Positions 6,960 to 25,920 of a stretch of 32,575 nt of DNA are shown in pieces. The notes beneath the pieces were generated by a model. That model had not been told where the DNA came from. It made no database searches and was given only the letters and a program-made list of their open reading frames with translations. This stretch comes from a virus. How positions within the stretch are numbered: the stretch's first letter is position 1; every line of letters begins with the position of its first letter. The stretch covers positions 1-32,575 of the IMG/VR virus record IMGVR_UViG_3300032334_000942; one strand, given 5' to 3'. A program made the translations under genes and the position numbers.

Positions 6960-6988
6960 ATTATACCTGAAGGATCGATAAAAGTAAA
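6960..6988 (-). promoter_or_regulatory. Sigma70-type promoter before dexA-43
   Basis: The minus strand reads TTTACT (6988-6983), 17 bases, then TATAAT (6965-6960). It lies in the short gap between the upstream Sm-like gene and dexA, about 25 bases before the start codon. It would drive the exonuclease and DNA polymerase unit. Confidence 0.75.
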
Positions 6989-7544: not shown

Positions 7545-7712
7545 TTATACAAGACTTCTCATACGAATCCTTGCATAGTACTCACGTTCCAATGCTTCTA
7601 CTTGAGTTGCATTTTGTGGATTGTTTCGTACGATATATTGCTCAAGTGTCGTTGATCTGTCTTTGAAAAGATCTGAAAAGAATTCCTTAAAGGCGAGAAG
7701 CAGCTTGATCAT
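7545..7712 (-). CDS. Small conserved-looking phage protein, 55 residues
   Basis: This short gene begins at ATG 7712 with an excellent ribosome site (AGGAGG, 6 bases of spacing). It overlaps the last 26 bases of the Hsp20 gene in another frame. The product starts MIKLLLAFKEFFSDLFKDRS and contains LEQYIVRNNPQNATQVEALE before a basic end. The hydrophobic, amphipathic N-terminus could be a helix that touches membrane or partner protein. The NPQN-x-x-QVE pattern looks familiar from small proteins of other T4-like phages, but the function is unknown. The strong ribosome site and the terminator-like hairpin after the stop support a real gene. Confidence 0.8.
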   Translation of the reverse strand: MIKLLLAFKEFFSDLFKDRSTTLEQYIVRNNPQNATQVEALEREYYARIRMRSLV

Positions 7713-8184
7713 ATGCATCCTCCTGCAGTAATTCCTTACCCTTACGAGACTTCACTTGAATTTTCTTTGGTTTCTTTTCTTCTGGAATCAAACGCTCCAA
7801 GAAGATTTTAAGCATACCATTGAACATCTCAGCGTCTTTAACTTCGATGTGGTCATCGATAGCAAAGGAACGAGTGAAGGCACGATTAGCGATTCCACGG
7901 AAAAGGAAATTCTCTGGATTCTCATCAGCTTTAATGTTACCACGAACCATTAACTTACCATCTTCCATTTCGATATCAATGTCAGACTGGCCAAAACCAG
8001 CAACAGCCAACTCAATGGTGTAGTGGTTATCGTCATGCTTGATGATATTGTATGGAGGATAGTTTGGAATGTTCTTGGTCAGGTCTTCATGCATCTTCTG
8101 CATGCGAGCCATTGGCTCTTCGAATCCAACAAAGAAACGATCAAAGTCCTTGAATCCAGGACCAAATAGTGCTAGATGTGTCAT
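7687..8184 (-). CDS. hsp20: Hsp20 small heat-shock protein (IbpA-like)
   Basis: This is a 165-residue ATP-independent holdase chaperone. The N-terminal region includes FGPGFKDFDRFFVGFEE, which resembles the IbpA start. The alpha-crystallin domain (about 45-145) begins PPYNIIKHDDNHYTIELAVA and contains FLFRGIANRAFTRSFAI. It ends with GMLKIFLERLIPEEKKPKKI, the G-x-L beta-9 segment followed by the IPEE(K/x)KP signature. Related hsp20 genes are common in T4-like marine phages, where they are thought to help fold phage proteins. The start is ATG 8184 with GGAGAG upstream. It follows a 74-residue gene by 9 bases and overlaps the following small gene. Confidence 0.93.
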   Translation of the reverse strand: MTHLALFGPGFKDFDRFFVGFEEPMARMQKMHEDLTKNIPNYPPYNIIKHDDNHYTIELAVAGFGQSDIDIEMEDGKLMVRGNIKADENPENFLFRGIANRAFTRSFAIDDHIEVKDAEMFNGMLKIFLERLIPEEKKPKKIQVKSRKGKELLQEDAYDQAASRL

Positions 8185-12049: not shown

Positions 12050-12850
12050 TTATTTGTTGGTTTGCACAGTTGGAGTAACAACACCATTGATCACCAAAGT
12101 CTGTCCCTTGAAGTTAGCAATGGCACGTGGCAGTTCACGAATAGCATCTGCTTCGGCTTCTGCTTTCAACAGTGGGATGGCCATAGGGTTGGCTTGCATA
12201 GATTCGTTACGCTTACGAGCAGTGGCAACTTTAACTTCTTCAGTCTTGTATTCGTTCTTTGCCTTTACCAATTCATTGGCAGATGCAACAACTGAATCAG
12301 CAGGAACAATGTTACGAATCAATACTTGACTAATAACAATGGTACCATCCATCTTCTCATCAGCAAGAGTACGGATAACCTGTTCTTTGATTTCAGTTTC
12401 CATTGCTTGACGAGCATCACCCATCTCTAATGCTTCGTACTTGCGAGCAGACTTGTAGATGGCGTTACGAGTAGCATTGAACACATAGTTATACATCAAG
12501 TAAACATCGCCATCGTGACTGGCATGAAAACTCTTGTTCTTGCTGTTGTAGATCTCAGCCACTTGACTTTGGTTGATGTTATATGTGATCATAGCATCAA
12601 AGTCTTTCATGGTGCTGTTATCCTTGGCCAGCGGAGTCATGTCTTCAACTTTGACAGTGATCTCTTTGACTGGGAAGGTGATAACATTGCCAATGATAGT
12701 CTGGTTAAAAGATCCAGGTAGCAATTCTTCAGTCTTAACCTGTCGATCAAATCCAACACGCAAACCAACTTCGCCAGTCTCAATACGTGCACAACCAGTA
12801 GCCAATGACATAGCTGCAACGATAGCGGTAACTTTCAAAACATTTTTCAT
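12050..12850 (-). CDS. SPFH/prohibitin-like (band 7) lipoprotein
   Basis: The 266-residue product begins with a short signal (MKNVLKVTAIVAAMSLATGC) ending in a lipobox-like ATGC, so Cys20 is probably lipid-modified. The SPFH domain follows: ETGEVGLRVGF, VITFPVKEITVKVEDMTPLA, and the MKDFDAMITYNIN stretch are typical of prohibitins. A coiled-coil region (ELVKAKNEYKTEEVKVATAR, then KAEAEADAIRE) is the flotillin/prohibitin-like helix. Such proteins form membrane-bound rings. Its role in phage infection is unknown; host membrane control or protection of a phage factor is possible. ATG 12850 has AAGGA at 6 bases, and the longer TTG 12856 start is less likely. A two-helix membrane peptide is encoded just upstream. 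Confidence 0.85.
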   Translation of the reverse strand: MKNVLKVTAIVAAMSLATGCARIETGEVGLRVGFDRQVKTEELLPGSFNQTIIGNVITFPVKEITVKVEDMTPLAKDNSTMKDFDAMITYNINQSQVAEIYNSKNKSFHASHDGDVYLMYNYVFNATRNAIYKSARKYEALEMGDARQAMETEIKEQVIRTLADEKMDGTIVISQVLIRNIVPADSVVASANELVKAKNEYKTEEVKVATARKRNESMQANPMAIPLLKAEAEADAIRELPRAIANFKGQTLVINGVVTPTVQTNK

Positions 12851-12859
12851 TATCAATCC

Positions 12860-14484: not shown

Positions 14485-15660
14485 TTAAAAGGGAATTTCG
14501 TTGTCAATTACTTGACTAGCTGGTGTTTCTTCAACAGCCACCTCACCACTCGAAACCTTATCGAACAGGTCAACAAAAGCCAGACGAGTAGCATCATCAA
14601 ATCGGTTGGTACACAATTCAATTGCTTTCTTCTGATTCTTGAAGATCGAGAAGGCACGTACAATATGAATCAGACGACGAGTAGTGATAGTCTCATCCAC
14701 ACCACCAGAGTCAAACGTGCGACGAATAGCGTCAGCCCACTTGACCATAGTATCAGCAAATTTCTCATCGACACAACCATATGACTTCATAAGGTTCATG
14801 ACGATTTTCATTTCTACTTTAGCATCAGGATATTCCTGATTGAAGGTTACTGCGAATCGTTCCAAGAATGCTTCGTTAAGCACGTTGGTACCGATGTAAC
14901 GACCATCATCGCTACCCTTACCTTTAGTGTTCGCAGTGGCAAACATGTTAAAGCCAAGAGCAGGATAGATCATTTCGTTCTTGAGTTTGTAGTAGAAAGG
15001 TTTGCCCTCAAGAATCGGTTGCAAGCACAGCAATGCGTTAGCCGAGCCAGCGTCAATTTCGTCAAGCAGTAAAGGGATACCGAGACGCATTGCGATAACG
15101 ACTGGACCTTCAACGATCTCCACGTTACCATCGATAAGGGTTTTTGTACCTACCAGCTGATCTTCGTCAGTCTGGCTGTTCAGGTTGATGCGGATAAGGG
15201 GACGACGATGCTTCGCACAGATTTGCTCAATGGAAGTCGACTTACCATTACCAGTTGGACCACTGACATATGCAGGGTAGAATTGCTTGGACACAACGAT
15301 TTGTTCCAAGTCTTTGTAGTTACCGAAGGGAACATAGTTCGCATCGATTTTGGGAATGAGGGATTCAGTATTAGTAAAGTCCACAGACACTGCTTCAGCT
15401 TTATGTTTAAATTGTTTAGGGGTCGGTGAATCGTTTGCAGGTTCAGCCAAAGGTGATGTCATGCTACCTCCAGGGATCGCATACAAACCACGACCGACTG
15501 CAGTAGCCATGAGCCACAAGGGATGGAACTGGTTACCCATTTCCTCACGAATTTCCAGCAGTTGCTTGCGGGAAACAACACCAGATGTTTTGACGTCAGG
15601 GTACTTTGAAAACAATTTATCTTCGAAAACTGTTTTCTGACCCTCAGTAATTTTAGCCAT
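14485..15660 (-). CDS. cobS: CobS-like AAA+ ATPase (MoxR-type)
   Basis: This 391-residue AAA+ protein has Walker A SGPTGNGKS near residue 134 and Walker B LLLDEIDAGS near 198. The LVGTKTLIDGNVEIVEGPVV segment between them is typical of CobS/MoxR ATPases. Sensor 1 is MFATANTKGKG, and NEAFLERFAVTF carries the arginine finger. In bacteria CobS powers cobalt insertion with CobT and CobN, and cobS is common in T4-like marine phages. Here a CobT-like gene is nearby, but CobN is not, so the pair may act on another target. The first 85 residues are a separate region. ATG 15663 and 15660 are adjacent; 15660 has better spacing to GGAG. Confidence 0.88.
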   Translation of the reverse strand: MAKITEGQKTVFEDKLFSKYPDVKTSGVVSRKQLLEIREEMGNQFHPLWLMATAVGRGLYAIPGGSMTSPLAEPANDSPTPKQFKHKAEAVSVDFTNTESLIPKIDANYVPFGNYKDLEQIVVSKQFYPAYVSGPTGNGKSTSIEQICAKHRRPLIRINLNSQTDEDQLVGTKTLIDGNVEIVEGPVVIAMRLGIPLLLDEIDAGSANALLCLQPILEGKPFYYKLKNEMIYPALGFNMFATANTKGKGSDDGRYIGTNVLNEAFLERFAVTFNQEYPDAKVEMKIVMNLMKSYGCVDEKFADTMVKWADAIRRTFDSGGVDETITTRRLIHIVRAFSIFKNQKKAIELCTNRFDDATRLAFVDLFDKVSSGEVAVEETPASQVIDNEIPF

Positions 15661-15683
15661 CATTCACTCCATTCATAATAAAG

Positions 15684-15712
15684 ATTATACACCAAACTGA
15701 AGCCAAAGTAAA
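15684..15712 (-). promoter_or_regulatory. Sigma70-type promoter (proximal) before cobS-like gene
   Basis: TTTACT (15712-15707), 17 bases, TATAAT (15689-15684) on the minus strand, about 24 bases before the cobS-like start. A second promoter lies 60 bases upstream. Confidence 0.8.
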
Positions 15713-15743
15713 GTGTTTGCACGAAACTCAACTCCATACAATA

Positions 15744-15772
15744 ATTATACCCTAAAGATGAATTATTGTAAA
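15744..15772 (-). promoter_or_regulatory. Sigma70-type promoter (distal) before cobS-like gene
   Basis: TTTACA (15772-15767), 17 bases, TATAAT (15749-15744). The whole element, including most spacer bases, is nearly identical to the promoter at 16000-16028. It lies just after a terminator-like hairpin. Confidence 0.8.
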
Positions 15773-15789
15773 CCCCCTAAAGTTGCAAG

Positions 15790-15815
15790 AAAACAACGAA
15801 CTAAGTCGTTGTTTT
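15790..15815 (-). terminator. Terminator-like hairpin, second of two, after the 45-residue gene
   Basis: Minus-strand AACAACGA pairs with TCGTTGTT (about 10 bp with flanking A-T pairs) around a 6-base loop, followed by TTTTCTT. The inverse orientation also has a T-run, so it could work in both directions. Confidence 0.7.
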
Positions 15816-15817
15816 TA

Positions 15818-15835
15818 AAGGGGAAAATTCCCCTT
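15818..15835 (-). terminator. Terminator-like hairpin, first of two, after the 45-residue gene
   Basis: An exact palindrome AAGGGG-AATTTT-CCCCTT on the minus strand begins 3 bases after the stop codon of the small gene. It is followed by TTTAAAAA, a poor T-run, and by a second hairpin. Confidence 0.55.
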
Positions 15836-15838
15836 CGC

Positions 15839-15976
15839 TTAGTAGGGTTTATAAAACTCCTTCAATGCGGTTTGCAATTTTAGGGCAGAAAGACAAATTT
15901 CAAAAGTTTCGCCGTTTACCGAAAGGTCGGCTAAAAAATCTAAAAATTCGGAAAACTCTACGTCTGATTTAAACAT
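15839..15976 (-). CDS. Small acidic protein between cobT-like and cobS-like genes, 45 residues
   Basis: This short frame begins at ATG 15976 with a TAGGAG ribosome site 6 bases upstream and its own strong promoter at 16000-16028. The product starts MFKSDVEFSEFLDFLADLSV and continues GETFEICLSALKLQ, so it appears to be two amphipathic helices with an acidic N-terminal half. No family is recognised. The transcript from the promoter would begin with a small AAGGT/ACCTT hairpin and end at two consecutive hairpins after the stop, so the gene looks like a self-contained small transcription unit. Strong expression is implied by the promoter. A regulator or inhibitor role is possible but unproven. 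Confidence 0.72.
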   Translation of the reverse strand: MFKSDVEFSEFLDFLADLSVNGETFEICLSALKLQTALKEFYKPY

Positions 15977-15999
15977 AACAACTCCTAAGGTGAAACCTT

Positions 16000-16028
16000 A
16001 TTATACCCTAAAGTTGAATTATTGTAAA
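16000..16028 (-). promoter_or_regulatory. Sigma70-type promoter before the 45-residue gene
   Basis: TTTACA (16028-16023), 17 bases, TATAAT (16005-16000) on the minus strand. The sequence right after the -10 box can form an AAGGT-TTC-ACCTT hairpin at the expected 5' end of the RNA. Confidence 0.82.
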
Positions 16029-16031
16029 CCC

Positions 16032-18182
16032 CTACGCCACCAGAGACACAAACCGATTCAGAAGCAGTCGGCTGGTCTTCTTGACATCCAAGAATTTTGT
16101 GAATTGCTTCGCAATCTGCTTGGAGTTCATATCGGTACTTACCGTCAACTTACCCTCATCGGTTTCCATTTTGCTGGCTGGCAACAGGTACAACTCATCA
16201 CGACCAGCATTGCTCAACATGGAAAAGTCCTGAGTGCGAAAGTCTTTCTTGATCTGCTGAATGATTGCATACTCATGAGCACCATTTGCACACTCAGGAA
16301 CATTGTAACGAATAAACGAAGCCATGTCACGCTGACTATTGCGAATCACATGGAAGCCAATGGTCGAAGCATTGTAACGATCCTTGATGATACGCAGAAA
16401 CACTTTAGTCTGTTCAGTGCCATCACCAGAGATGCTGTACTCACGACGAGTTATTGGGTCACGCAGATAATTAACCTGCTTGCAACGAACACCAGCAGAA
16501 TTGTATCTCTGATGATTGATGTTTGTCATACCCTGAATACCATGACCCTCGCCATCGGTCAACGTGATGAATGATGTTTTCTCCACGTTGTTGTTCTTGA
16601 TAAACTTACCGAGATAGTCAACCATAAACAACAAACCTTCATTGAGTGGTGTGCTGTTCAGTGAATACTGCGGAGACCATGCCCATGGCTTTCTGATCAA
16701 CAACTCAACCATGCGATTGAATTCAGTATTGGACATTTTGTTTGAGAAAAATTCGAACAAATTGAAGTTACCGCAAACAAAACCTTTGAAATTGGGATCA
16801 ACAGGTTGTGTAGCATAGGGATTATACCCTTCTTCCTGATAACCATTGGTAAAGGCAAACACCTGATATGCGATTTGAGCACGTTGGCAGAACATTGCAA
16901 GATTGATAACTTGCTTTACTGTGTCTTCCATCACTTCATTCATCGAGCCAGACCAGTCAAGCAAGAACACCATGCCATGATTCTTTGCATCAGGAACAAC
17001 AGTGATACGTTTGAACATATCGTCGGTCAACTTGTATGCATGCAACTTGCGCACATTCAATTCACCAGTCTTGGCAACAGTGCTACGCTTGTAAGCAGTT
17101 GCAGACTTCTTCATCTCAAACTCTTTCACTAGGTAGTTAACCACACGTGAGGAATCAGTCTTGAATTTTTCCAGTGACTTTGTCTGACAAGCAATATATG
17201 TGTCAGCTGCCTTTGCATCGCCCATGCGATTAACAAGTTTAGTGCGATACTGTTCCAACTCAATGGGCAACTCAGTCAGAATTCTTTTGTAACCGATGAT
17301 GGGTTCACTGCGGGTCTTTAACACTGGTTCATAGATCTCAACCTGAGTAGTTACGTCTGCCAAGTTGCTGAGACGTTGACGCAATGCTTTCTCGGTAGTG
17401 GACTCAACTTCTTCTTCAGCTACTTCCTCATTGATTTTAGCATTGGGGTCTGATCCAGTTGAGTGTTGTTTACCATCCTCATCTTCTTCGAGTTCTTTGG
17501 TATCGGTATCTTCTTCGTCTTCTTCAATGTCATCAAACATATCTGAATCTGATTCGTATTCAACTTCTTCTAGGTCATCCATGTCTTCCTTGGACATTTT
17601 GATGTCTAGTTGTTGCTCAGCCAGCGACTGTTTGAATTTCTTGCGCTCTTCCATCGTGAAGGCAAGCAGTTCTTTGGCAAGCAGGTAAACGTCTTCAATG
17701 CTGTCGCAACGATCAGCGGCACGAACAAATTCCATTTCTTCAGTTGTGAATTTTACACCACAGTTAAAACCACACTTGTAGTAAAGGTTGATTCGATCAA
17801 TCAGCAATAGCTTGGACATGTCCTTACCTTTGATCTCAAAGAAGTCACGTTCATTGAGTTCACGATACGCACGCAGGAAAGATGCACGCAGACCTGGATA
17901 TTTGTTTTTGATTTTCTTTTCGATGCGTACGTCTTCGATGACATTCATGTAGCCATGAAGAGCACGTGTTCCATCTTCTTTGATGTAGTCGTCGGTTGTA
18001 AACAACGCATGACCAACTTCGTGACCGATAAGCATTTCTTCAACGTCATCGGACATCTCTTTCCATTGCGGAAGAGTAAGGGTACGTGAACGAATATCCA
18101 TGGACGCTGTAGACACAGGCGCACGAACGATGTTCAGATTTTCGTTGGCCAGAAGTCTAGCCAGCAGGTCACGTGAATTCAT
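16032..18182 (-). CDS. cobT: CobT-like protein with HExxH metallopeptidase motif and VWA domain
   Basis: This large protein (716 residues) has an N-terminal zinc-peptidase-like region (LIGHEVGHALFTT, near residue 52, followed by MNVIEDVRIEKK). A very acidic stretch (DDLEEVEYESDSDMFDDIEE and beyond) follows. The C-terminal VWA domain has a complete MIDAS start (FLLDWSGSMNE), a later DG element (TLTDGEGHG), and an FRTQDFSMLSN region. This is the CobT layout of acidic linker plus VWA. With the CobS-like AAA+ protein it resembles a MoxR-VWA pair, which inserts metals or remodels proteins. Whether it makes cobalamin is not shown. ATG 18182 has GGAG 8 bases upstream and is preferred to TTG 18200. 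Confidence 0.85.
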   Translation of the reverse strand: MNSRDLLARLLANENLNIVRAPVSTASMDIRSRTLTLPQWKEMSDDVEEMLIGHEVGHALFTTDDYIKEDGTRALHGYMNVIEDVRIEKKIKNKYPGLRASFLRAYRELNERDFFEIKGKDMSKLLLIDRINLYYKCGFNCGVKFTTEEMEFVRAADRCDSIEDVYLLAKELLAFTMEERKKFKQSLAEQQLDIKMSKEDMDDLEEVEYESDSDMFDDIEEDEEDTDTKELEEDEDGKQHSTGSDPNAKINEEVAEEEVESTTEKALRQRLSNLADVTTQVEIYEPVLKTRSEPIIGYKRILTELPIELEQYRTKLVNRMGDAKAADTYIACQTKSLEKFKTDSSRVVNYLVKEFEMKKSATAYKRSTVAKTGELNVRKLHAYKLTDDMFKRITVVPDAKNHGMVFLLDWSGSMNEVMEDTVKQVINLAMFCQRAQIAYQVFAFTNGYQEEGYNPYATQPVDPNFKGFVCGNFNLFEFFSNKMSNTEFNRMVELLIRKPWAWSPQYSLNSTPLNEGLLFMVDYLGKFIKNNNVEKTSFITLTDGEGHGIQGMTNINHQRYNSAGVRCKQVNYLRDPITRREYSISGDGTEQTKVFLRIIKDRYNASTIGFHVIRNSQRDMASFIRYNVPECANGAHEYAIIQQIKKDFRTQDFSMLSNAGRDELYLLPASKMETDEGKLTVSTDMNSKQIAKQFTKFLDVKKTSRLLLNRFVSLVA

Positions 18183-18207
18183 AAAGTTTTCTCCATTCAA
18201 TACATTA

Positions 18208-18236
18208 ATTATGCATGAAAACTGAATTAAAGTAAA
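18208..18236 (-). promoter_or_regulatory. Sigma70-type promoter before cobT-like gene
   Basis: TTTACT (18236-18231), 17 bases, CATAAT (18213-18208) on the minus strand, about 25 bases before ATG 18182. It follows the gp46 terminator. Confidence 0.72.
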
Positions 18237-20018: not shown

Positions 20019-21064
20019 ACTTCGATGTTGACTGCCTCTGTGTAAAGGGTACGCATGAATGTTTTAATCTTTTCTTTATCGGCATCTGTTTGAATAGAGT
20101 CGATATAATTACTTAGCACATCAAGTGTGTCTTCAAGATTGATATCTGAAGATACTTCGCCTTCGTTAAACTCCGAGAGATCTTCAACGATCTTGATCTC
20201 GGCGCAACCCTTAGTATACAGCTTTTGAACGTATTTGTCAAATTTGTAATAGTCGGTTTTGTTTACCACAACCAACTTTACATACTTACCTTGCAGATCC
20301 AATCCATCCAGATCTTCCAATGTGCCAGTATCATCATACTCATGACGAGAGAACATCGTGTAAGGATTCTGATAAAATTGCAACTGTCGTGTATCAAGAT
20401 CAAACAAGTGGAAACCACGAGGATCGTTATAATCCTGCCATGTTAGTTCATAAGGATTCCCGAGGTAATAGATATGATTGTCATTACTACGGTGATGATA
20501 GTGACCACTGAATACCAGATCAAACTTTCTAAAAGTGTCGGTTGCGAATCCTTCATTACTTTGCATTCCTCTGTACATTGCGAAGCCAGCAATCTCAAAG
20601 TGACCCATGCAGATTTCTGCTTTGGATTCTTTCATAGTTTGCATGGAGTGTTCATAATTATCTGTGCAGATCCATGGTGCAAAACAAATGTCTGTACCAT
20701 GCACATCGAGAGTCACTGCCTCATCGATAATCTGAATGTTTTTATATTCCTTCAACAGCAACTCAGGAGAGTTAACTTCATTGGTGTTCTTGAAGTATGT
20801 GTCATGGTTACCTGCAATCATGATCACATCAATATCTTTCTCTGTCAACTTATCAAAGAACATTTTCTTGGCACGACCCAGTGAATAAAAGTTTACATAC
20901 TTGCGTCTATCAAAGGTGTCACCGAGAATGAGAACAGTTTTAATCTCATGTTCTTCTAGTGTTGGAAAGAAAGTATTGTCATAGAATTTTTCGTAGAAGT
21001 CGAGAAATGCCTGACTGTCGTTACGTGCACCGAAGTGCTGGTCTGTGATAATGGCTACTCTCAA
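20015..21064 (-). CDS. 47: Recombination nuclease subunit, Mre11/SbcD-like (T4 gp47)
   Basis: This metallophosphoesterase nuclease acts with gp46. It has 349 residues (T4 339). Motifs in order are IITDQHFGARND (Asp8 and His10), LGDTFDRR, MIAGNHDTYF and FSGHYHHRSND, which together form the two-metal site. The first codon appears to be TTG (21064), overlapping the upstream stop as TTGA. No better-placed ATG exists near the conserved start, since the next residues are already part of the first motif. The weak start could keep gp47 levels below those of its neighbours. Confidence 0.95.
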   Translation of the reverse strand: MRVAIITDQHFGARNDSQAFLDFYEKFYDNTFFPTLEEHEIKTVLILGDTFDRRKYVNFYSLGRAKKMFFDKLTEKDIDVIMIAGNHDTYFKNTNEVNSPELLLKEYKNIQIIDEAVTLDVHGTDICFAPWICTDNYEHSMQTMKESKAEICMGHFEIAGFAMYRGMQSNEGFATDTFRKFDLVFSGHYHHRSNDNHIYYLGNPYELTWQDYNDPRGFHLFDLDTRQLQFYQNPYTMFSRHEYDDTGTLEDLDGLDLQGKYVKLVVVNKTDYYKFDKYVQKLYTKGCAEIKIVEDLSEFNEGEVSSDINLEDTLDVLSNYIDSIQTDADKEKIKTFMRTLYTEAVNIEV

Positions 21065-22218
21065 ATGAACCCGACCTTTCTTTCTTTAGGTTTATTAGTC
21101 TGCTTGTTGAATACCTCAGCAATAGACCACTTGTCTTGCGTACCATCAAGTTTAACCTCAAGTCTCTTTGCAAGCAACTCTGCTTCTTCCTGTGTAAGAT
21201 TTTCAAAGGTAACAATGTCAAAGCAACGTCCAGGTCTTACAAGAGCAGAGTCAATGTCACGAATGCTTGGAAGGTTGGTAGAAAAGATCATCTTCTTACC
21301 TTTGGTAGTTACAAGACCATCACCTACGTTTAGGAATCGGTGCATCATTGTATTACCATCGCTACGTGACTTCAAGAATGCATCGCTGTCTTCCAACACC
21401 ATGATTGTTTCATCACCTTCAATGAAACGTGCAAAGAAACTATCCTTCTCAAGAATCTGAGAATCGTATGAAACGATAGCTGAGGAATTTGTTAGTGCAA
21501 GCATACCACGAATGAATGTGGTCTTGCCAGTGCCTGGAGGTCCAATCAACAACAGAATGTTTGCTGATGATTCCAAGTAACGATGGTAGTATGATTCCAG
21601 CGACTCACCTTTAAGGAAAGGATACATCTCTTCAACTGGAAGACGATCACGATTCAATGGCACGTTGACAGATTCACCCTGACTACCGTATACCCACTCG
21701 ATGTGGGAAGTAACGATGTCAAACTTTTCTTCAACAGTGACAATAACATTTTCGCAGAAGTCAACATCACCGAAAGCACGAATAGTTGTTGTATTGCTAT
21801 CAACACTGTAAGTGATATAGTTCGATTCTTTCACGAAGATAATAAAGCCATTGGAACTGCTACCCTGAACATACAGAACGTCTTGATATTCGTTCTCTGC
21901 CCATGTTGCCCATGTCTCACGATTGCACAGAACTGTTGTTTCACGATGCACCGTATTTTTGCCAGCAGCAATACGTTTTTGCAAAAGATCTGAAGTGATC
22001 AGGTCATCAAAATCACTTACGCCCAAGAATATTTTTTCATTATTTTCCATAATACGTCCACAGTTTAAAAGTTTATCCATAGCATCCCAGGTAAAATGCT
22101 TTAGCGTTTTTCTCGATTTACGGTTACCTTTACGCCTTCTTCTTCTAATAGGTGGGTAACTACGTACCACATCACGTATACCATGCGATTCTAATAATTG
22201 TCTAAGGTAAGGTTCCAT
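21061..22218 (-). CDS. AAA+ ATPase, Bcs1-like or proteasome-type core, unknown role
   Basis: This is a 385-residue protein. The N-terminal part is basic (PPIRRRRRKGNRKSRKTLKH). A middle region of unknown fold follows. The AAA core has Walker A IGPPGTGKTTF (about 226-236), Walker B MVLEDSDAFL, and the sensor and arginine segment FSTNLPSIRDIDSALVRPGR, followed by FDIVTFENLT. The DxxLxRPGR pattern is typical of classical AAA proteins such as Bcs1 and FtsH. It lies between the late sigma gene 55 and gene 47 with overlaps on both sides. T4 has no equivalent here, and the substrate is unknown. ATG 22218 is chosen; GTG 22227 is an alternative. Confidence 0.88.
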   Translation of the reverse strand: MEPYLRQLLESHGIRDVVRSYPPIRRRRRKGNRKSRKTLKHFTWDAMDKLLNCGRIMENNEKIFLGVSDFDDLITSDLLQKRIAAGKNTVHRETTVLCNRETWATWAENEYQDVLYVQGSSSNGFIIFVKESNYITYSVDSNTTTIRAFGDVDFCENVIVTVEEKFDIVTSHIEWVYGSQGESVNVPLNRDRLPVEEMYPFLKGESLESYYHRYLESSANILLLIGPPGTGKTTFIRGMLALTNSSAIVSYDSQILEKDSFFARFIEGDETIMVLEDSDAFLKSRSDGNTMMHRFLNVGDGLVTTKGKKMIFSTNLPSIRDIDSALVRPGRCFDIVTFENLTQEEAELLAKRLEVKLDGTQDKWSIAEVFNKQTNKPKERKVGFI

Positions 22219-22783
22219 CGTTATCACTCACTTCATCAATAATTTCTACACTATCCATAAAGTTCTCAAGAGTCTTTGCTTTCGCAGCAGCAAGTTTCTT
22301 TGCTTTCTTCTTGGCATATGGGTCTTCAAAGTCGCTATTATTTTGCAGAAAATCTAAGTAAGCATTGTTGTAAGCACCATTCTCATCATGATCTTGTAAC
22401 TCAAACGCATCAAATGGCATCTCCATTATAATCTTGTTCTTGATAAATGTCTGCTTCTTTTCCTTTGCTATACGACGAAGGAAAGCGTAGTAGATAATCT
22501 GTGTGAAGTAAGCAAATGGGTTCTTTGATTTGGTGGGATCAAAGTTAGTGAAGTACTGAAGACAGTTCTCCAACCCATCTGATATCATTTCTTCACGATA
22601 AGAGTAGTTAATGAAATTTGGTTTGTATGATAGATGTGTTGCAATTTTAAGAATACAGTCGCCAAGATAGTTTGTTACACGAGGTTTTTCTTCCCCTGCT
22701 TCTTCTGCAGCTTTTACTTTTTCGTGGTATTCTTTTATCGCTTCATAAAAATCAGCGTTGTTAACGTAATGTGCTTTTGCCAT
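22202..22783 (-). CDS. 55: Late-transcription sigma factor (T4 gp55)
   Basis: gp55 directs host RNA polymerase to phage late promoters (TATAAATA type), helped by the sliding clamp. The 193-residue length is close to T4 (185). The conserved core is here: KPNFINYSYREEMISDGLEN, CLQYFTNFDPTKSKNPFAYF, and TQIIYYAFLRRIAKEKKQ. These correspond to sigma region 2-like parts that read the promoter. The C-terminus has acidic and basic stretches that should reach the clamp. It has its own sigma70-type promoter (22819-22847), allowing production before late genes are switched on. It overlaps the AAA+ gene by about 17 bases. Confidence 0.95.
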   Translation of the reverse strand: MAKAHYVNNADFYEAIKEYHEKVKAAEEAGEEKPRVTNYLGDCILKIATHLSYKPNFINYSYREEMISDGLENCLQYFTNFDPTKSKNPFAYFTQIIYYAFLRRIAKEKKQTFIKNKIIMEMPFDAFELQDHDENGAYNNAYLDFLQNNSDFEDPYAKKKAKKLAAAKAKTLENFMDSVEIIDEVSDNDGTLP

Positions 22784-25912: not shown

Positions 25913-25920
25913 TATTTATA
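25913..25920 (-). promoter_or_regulatory. T4 late promoter, exact TATAAATA
   Basis: The exact T4 late consensus lies 5 bases upstream of ATG 25907 and 5 bases downstream of the gp23 terminator stem. It would be read by host polymerase with gp55. Confidence 0.75.

Follow-up and report, generated by a model that had tools for sequence, protein, structure and literature searches.

The stretch of viral DNA analysed here, 32,575 nucleotides long (positions 1 to 32,575 of IMG/VR virus record IMGVR_UViG_3300032334_000942; called the window below), is by its gene content a fragment of a T4-like phage, and it carries a pair of genes that encode a CobS-like AAA+ ATPase and a CobT-like protein with a zincin-like N-terminal domain and a von Willebrand factor A (VWA) domain, here called the zincin-VWA protein. 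We think it probable that the two proteins work as a MoxR-type ATPase with a partner that binds its substrate, that they remodel a target of the replication phase of infection, and that they are not parts of a cobaltochelatase. The class of machine, an ATPase ring with an adaptor that has a metal ion-dependent adhesion site (MIDAS) and carries a zincin domain, is well supported by the findings below. That a MoxR-VWA pair may include a metallopeptidase is not a new idea: Iyer et al. (2021; PMC7824862) had suggested it for jumbo phages.

An original prediction, made from the sequence alone, had named a CobS-like AAA+ gene and a CobT-like VWA gene at this place, and both open reading frames were found there on the minus strand (Table 1). 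In addition to its Walker A motif, the ATPase has the AAA+ motifs ATAN at residue 242 and NEAFLERF at residue 263, and its Pfam matches (AAA_5, E 1e-13; CbbQ_C, E 1e-5) place it in the MoxR clade. The phrog_249 profile, annotated as "porphyrin biosynthesis", matches its residues 84-375 with an E-value of 1.7e-101. Midasin, CobS, CbbQ and NorQ are the relatives with solved structures, Midasin being the best sequence match in the PDB, and against the NCBIfam CobS model (PD_CobS, TIGR01650) the protein scores 106.7 bits, below the membership cut-off of 558.55 bits.

The phrog_459 "peptidase" profile matches the partner over its full length (residues 5-716, E 3.5e-184). Its N-terminal domain (residues 1-185), modelled alone by AlphaFold2 with 48 relatives, is predicted to have three strands, a helix (45-61) that contains HEVGH and a helix (73-94) that contains E83, so that HExxH lies inside one helix and a conserved glutamate in the following one. 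The residues H54, E55, H58, N80, E83, D84, R86 and E88 of this domain, like D409, S411, S413, T511 and D543 of the MIDAS, are invariant in all 48 relatives of the zincin-VWA protein; since the identity of these goes down to 36%, the HExxH, NVIEDVRIE and MIDAS motifs that the original prediction had pointed out (residues 54-58, 80-88 and 409-414) cannot be dismissed as chance matches. In a Foldseek comparison of the predicted domain with the PDB, each of the nine top rows is a zincin metallopeptidase or a zincin-like protein (selecase, abylysin, jannalysin, ArdC; E 0.015 to 0.3), and the top 20 rows of a second structural aligner are likewise all zincins (Z 4.7 to 6.4), with ArdC, abylysin, IrrE/PprI, BlaR1 and ZMPSTE24 in the lead. 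We call the predicted fold a zincin because different zincin families agree and because the active-site helix coincides with the motif. For none of the minigluzincins (selecase, abylysin and jannalysin), ArdC or IrrE/PprI, the top structural matches of the domain, do we know of a fusion to a VWA domain or of a MoxR ATPase as partner. The domain was also found in predicted viral structures of very different phages and haloarchaeal viruses, and HExxH is present in the homologues from the archaeal virus HVTV-1, from a pelagiphage, from Ochrobactrum, Rhizobium, Roseobacter, Vibrio, Gordonia and Tsukamurella phages, and from plasmids.

The linker that the original prediction had called acidic is indeed so, with 42% Asp/Glu in residues 190-270 and 13% in the rest of the protein. 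The VWA domain, which lies in the C-terminal half of the full-length model, has its closest structural counterparts in NorD, from the NorQ-NorD complex (Z 16.1), and in Midasin, whose MIDAS domain scores Z 16.0; a PDB sequence search with the protein or its family profile returned nothing meaningful. An intact MIDAS (DxSxS, T and D) in a protein encoded next to the ATPase is what a MoxR/VWA pair should have; in such pairs, as a rule, the ATPase forms a ring and the VWA partner binds the substrate. NorQ is homologous to the window ATPase and NorD is the best structural match of its partner (compared over the VWA domain), but the NorQ-NorD pair serves to insert iron into nitric oxide reductase. 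Midasin (Rea1/MDN1) resembles both proteins of the pair, by AAA+ sequence and by VWA structure, but it is a single giant eukaryotic polypeptide that acts on ribosome precursors, and we know of no zincin domain in it.

How tightly are the two genes coupled? The zincin-VWA partner is present in 463 records of the phage collection and the AAA gene in 462, with a near-identical breakdown by organism, and a search with the Ochrobactrum phage homologue returned the 463 records again without adding a branch. These numbers led us to reject the possibility that the partner is peculiar to this window. They also correct the original prediction where it took the CobT-like protein for an addition to the usual cyanophage CobS, since the partner is equally common and is usually annotated "peptidase"; within this widespread phage family the window pair is nothing unusual. 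For the co-occurrence check that had been suggested, the result is that the two genes are adjacent, on the same strand and in the same order in 71 of 80 metagenomic relatives, which is every one of the 71 testable loci, as the contig ends within or just beyond the partner gene in the other nine.

The genes around the pair are largely those of DNA replication and recombination. In T4-like phages it lies between gp46/gp47 and gp45, and the order in Synechococcus phage S-PM2 is gp55, gp47, gp46, peptidase, CobS, gp45, gp44, a framework that is kept in the window. The core genes phrog_459 and phrog_249 of T4-like cyanophages are the same genes as those of the window, in the same order and at the S-PM2 location between gp46/gp47 and gp45/gp44, although their cultured members are about 30-36% identical to the window proteins. 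The pair comes after UvsX and primase/helicase in phage DLP6, is near DNA ligase, primase or polymerase III alpha in Rhizobium, Pseudomonas, Stenotrophomonas and SSU5 phages, is upstream of primase and helicase in Vibrio phage ICP2, and is in a region with Hef nuclease, an SprT-like protein, RecB and replication factor C in HVTV-1. A Providencia plasmid (L084) has a homologous pair, HExxH-VWA gene included, after SSB, RecT and exonuclease genes, and the AAA gene adjoins SSB, Bet and exonuclease genes in Comamonas and IncC plasmids (L138, L140); in all three of these conjugative-type plasmids the CobS-like ATPase is accompanied by DUF3150. The plasmid modules are alike in gene content and probably not independent of one another. 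An IncHI-type E. coli plasmid has AAA, DUF3150 and VWA genes and, in the stretch read, no recombination genes, and no replication gene was recognisable in the stretches read from Gordonia and Tsukamurella phages. Our literature search found no paper that treats plasmid DUF3150 together with the AAA/VWA pair.

The sequence TTTAC-N18-TATAAT occurs four times in the window, where 0.06 occurrences are expected, and three of the four are at the pair, while the only exact TATAAATA late-type promoter in the window is at 25920, beside the head genes. As consensus matches, the sigma-70-type promoters listed in Table 1 suggest that the pair is transcribed by the host sigma factor ahead of the late phase. 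The fourth TTTAC-N18-TATAAT copy (6960-6988, minus strand) is ahead of a predicted exonuclease gene.

The window protein and the true CobT of cobalamin synthesis are remotely related, by way of bridging sequences. Neither Pfam CobT (PF06213) nor CobT_C (PF11775) matches the window protein, and neither family is listed for any of the 48 relatives. Direct profile comparison with true CobT is weak, in that the full profile aligns only the VWA core and the N-terminal domain gives a probability of 1.6%. HExxH was not found within the CobT protein in any of 30 true CobTs from alphaproteobacterial genomes (a single HExxH, in L126, is part of an over-long open frame, upstream of its CobT region), so the N-terminal domain of CobT lacks the zincin active site that the window protein has in its HEVGH. 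A bridge between the two is provided by a protein annotated as "porphyrin biosynthesis" in a Salmonella phage-plasmid that is close to SSU5; the protein matches PF06213 (E 4e-38) and CobT_C (E 2e-114) and nevertheless retains HEVAH and NALEDVFIE. In profile comparisons (single-comparison values) the window family matches the bridge group with E 5e-11, HEVGH falling on HEVAH, and the bridge group matches true CobT with E 5e-10; in the alignment of the bridge with true CobT, HEVAH stands opposite residues such as AYALR, and the glutamate of the second motif is kept, as in AVEQARVE. Because these bridging phage proteins match the CobT family yet keep HExxH, the N-terminal domains of the window protein and of CobT are homologous. 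It thus appears that B12 CobT is a relative that lost the zinc site, its N-terminal domain being a decayed zincin; the literature that we searched has no mention of this. The direction, loss in CobT, is argued from the fold and from two further losses among phages (below) and not from rooting of a tree. In our unrooted, long-branched tree B12 CobT forms one tight clade, with a Roseobacter phage protein next to it and the T4-like clade a long way off; since the tree has no root and long branches, we claim no direction of gene transfer. CobT chains did not turn up in the fold searches, but the library may predate them, so this carries no weight. The label "CobT-like" of the original prediction can therefore be kept in the sense of homology through the bridge, with the qualification that it is the B12 enzyme that lacks the zinc site.

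Could the pair nevertheless serve vitamin B12 synthesis? Liu et al. (2021; PMC8651126) have published the idea that such proteins are viral cobaltochelatase subunits, which would join host CobN and boost cobalamin, for example for a B12-dependent ribonucleotide reductase. Both proteins are in fact remotely homologous to those of the aerobic cobaltochelatase CobNST (the AAA+ ring protein to CobS, the N-terminal and VWA domains to CobT), and Synechococcus elongatus, among the control genomes, is positive for the CobN family. Against it stand the intact zinc site of the window protein, which B12 CobT has lost, the lack of a Pfam CobT match, and a CobS score of 107 bits against a 559-bit cut-off. 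As the original prediction had said, CobN is not visible in the window: PF02514 was found neither in it (a fragment) nor in 13 complete phage records that carry the pair. The neighbours of the pair are DNA genes and not B12 genes, and a relative is present in a Pelagibacter phage, whose SAR11 host group lacks B12-dependent methionine synthases (PMC12478193). Liu et al. also stated that CobT had been called a peptidase by mistake; this is contradicted by HVTV-1, a member of the Druskaviridae that they discuss, since it carries HECGH and NAAEDGAIE. We consider a cobaltochelatase role very improbable. The MoxR-VWA remodelling pair with a peptidase-like domain that the original prediction preferred to a B12 enzyme agrees with the NorD/Midasin type of VWA fold, the zincin matches, the invariant HExxH and the failure to find CobN. 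Iyer et al. (2021; PMC7824862) proposed a later role, virion assembly, for the MoxR-vWA pair with fused metallopeptidase of group 2.2 jumbo phages, in which a chaperone and protease would fold and trim structural proteins. By its description that pair has the same architecture as the window pair, and a MoxR-VWA pair has been reported in archaeal virus tail formation (PMC7824862). The window, however, encodes a T4-type head maturation protease of its own, and scaffold and head genes too, at other places, its pair is beside replication genes with sigma-70-type promoters while the sole exact late-type site is at the head genes, and the neighbourhood is kept in unrelated phages and in conjugative plasmids, which make no virion. 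Promoters and neighbours thus argue for a role earlier than virion assembly, which we regard as an unlikely function here.

A further alternative is that the pair is purely a remodelling ATPase, with a zinc-stabilised N-terminal domain whose zincin fold binds substrate or metal and does not cut. HExxH has been lost in Pseudomonas phage Nican01 (SEISK; L145 4010-6091) and Stenotrophomonas phage BUCTxx99 (REVST; L146 4007-5992), natural variants that keep the gene pair without both zinc-binding histidines, as it has in B12 CobT, and because the pair persists in all three the scaffold is useful without catalysis. E55, on the other hand, is a residue that catalysis requires and metal binding does not, and it is invariant in 48 of 48 close relatives, so cleavage by the zincin domain of the window protein is likely, as judged from sequence conservation, and we rate a non-proteolytic domain as rather unlikely. 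Several points weigh against a protease that remodels a replication-phase target. The two phage relatives without HExxH mean that protease activity is not essential across the family; the structural scores of the zincin domain are modest (best Z 6.4, Foldseek E never below 0.01); the H54/H58/E83 zinc site is predicted from motif and helix positions; the promoters are known as consensus matches only; the association with neighbouring genes names no target; and we found no biochemical or functional tests on any member of the family, those of cultured cyanophages included.

If the pair is a remodelling machine of the replication phase, its mechanism might be as follows. The CobS-like protein would assemble into an AAA+ ring driven by ATP, on which the zincin-VWA partner would dock via its VWA domain, and the MIDAS metal would bind an acidic residue of the target or of the ring. 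The flexible acidic linker would tether the zincin domain, in which H54, H58 and probably E83 would hold zinc and E55 would be the catalytic base. The ring would pull or remodel the target while the zincin domain clips or grips it; the scaffold can work without a zinc site, as relatives without the site persist. Because the pair is placed with replication and recombination genes and behind host-type promoters, the target would most likely be a phage DNA replication or recombination protein or a host protein on phage DNA.

Table 1. Positions in the window of the two genes, their domains and motifs, and putative promoters
Feature	Residues	Position	Strand	Remarks
CobS-like MoxR-clade AAA+ ATPase, 392 aa (amino acids)		14485..15663	minus	phrog_249; AAA_5
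Walker A GPTGNGKS of the ATPase	135-142	15238..15261	minus	
Zincin-VWA protein ("peptidase", CobT-like), 716 aa		16032..18182	minus	phrog_459
N-terminal zincin-like domain (predicted)	1-185	17628..18182	minus	AlphaFold2 pLDDT 87.9, pTM 0.84
HEVGH	54-58	18009..18023	minus	predicted zinc ligands H54, H58; predicted catalytic E55; in helix 45-61
NVIEDVRIE	80-88	17919..17945	minus	E83 candidate third zinc ligand; helix 73-94, next after HExxH helix
Acidic linker, probably disordered	190-270	17373..17615	minus	pLDDT under 50 at residues 195-252
VWA domain	about 400-672	16167..16985	minus	from structural matches
MIDAS motif DWSGSM	409-414	16941..16958	minus	completed by T511, D543
Possible 45-aa open reading frame between the genes		15839..15976	minus	also in 98%-identical L001; no recognised family
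Sigma-70-type promoter TTTACT-N17-CATAAT, before zincin-VWA gene		18208..18236	minus	identical in L001
Sigma-70-type promoter TTTACA-N17-TATAAT, before 45-aa frame		16000..16028	minus	consensus match
Sigma-70-type promoter, upstream of CobS-like gene		15744..15772	minus	consensus match
Sigma-70-type promoter, directly before CobS-like gene		15684..15712	minus	similar ones at this place in many relatives

The zincin-VWA gene more likely starts at the ATG at 18182 than at the TTG at 18200, which would give a longer open reading frame, because a GGAG-type ribosome site precedes the ATG. The short frame between the two genes has its own putative promoter, and related loci hold different short open reading frames at the same place. 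The other replication and recombination genes of the window are those for the replicative helicase, UvsX, DNA polymerase, gp44 clamp loader, gp45 clamp, gp46, gp47 and UvsY, and it also has late sigma factor gp55 and a DNA helicase at the UvsW position. Its structural genes encode the major head protein (about 63% identical to T4-like cyanophage counterparts), scaffold, head maturation protease, portal and tail tube. A second AAA ATPase (PF00004, E 5e-10; 21061-22227, minus strand), to which no function is attached, lies between gp47 and gp55. A predicted lipoprotein at 12050-12856 (minus strand) with an SPFH/Band 7 domain (PF01145, E 9e-16; phrog_200 "lipoprotein") is prohibitin-like, in a T4-like phage, and the gene at 7687-8184 (minus strand) encodes an HSP20/alpha-crystallin protein (E 4e-18); hsp20 has been reported to be a cyanophage core gene. 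A PADLOC search for defence systems gave no meaningful match.

In marine phages the pair is routinely treated as auxiliary B12 metabolism, and ecological arguments on nucleotide synthesis use it as such. If it is a remodelling protease that acts in the replication phase, the inferences drawn in this way would fail, and the contradictory readings of Liu et al. (2021) and Iyer et al. (2021) become separable by experiment. More speculatively, and on balance doubtfully, mobile elements as different as phages, archaeal viruses and conjugative plasmids might all carry an ATP-driven zinc protease that clears proteins from DNA during replication or recombination, or cuts them there; CobT would be a decayed relative of this protease. 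The decayed-zincin link itself offers a hypothesis, open to test, on where one domain of a vitamin B12 enzyme came from.

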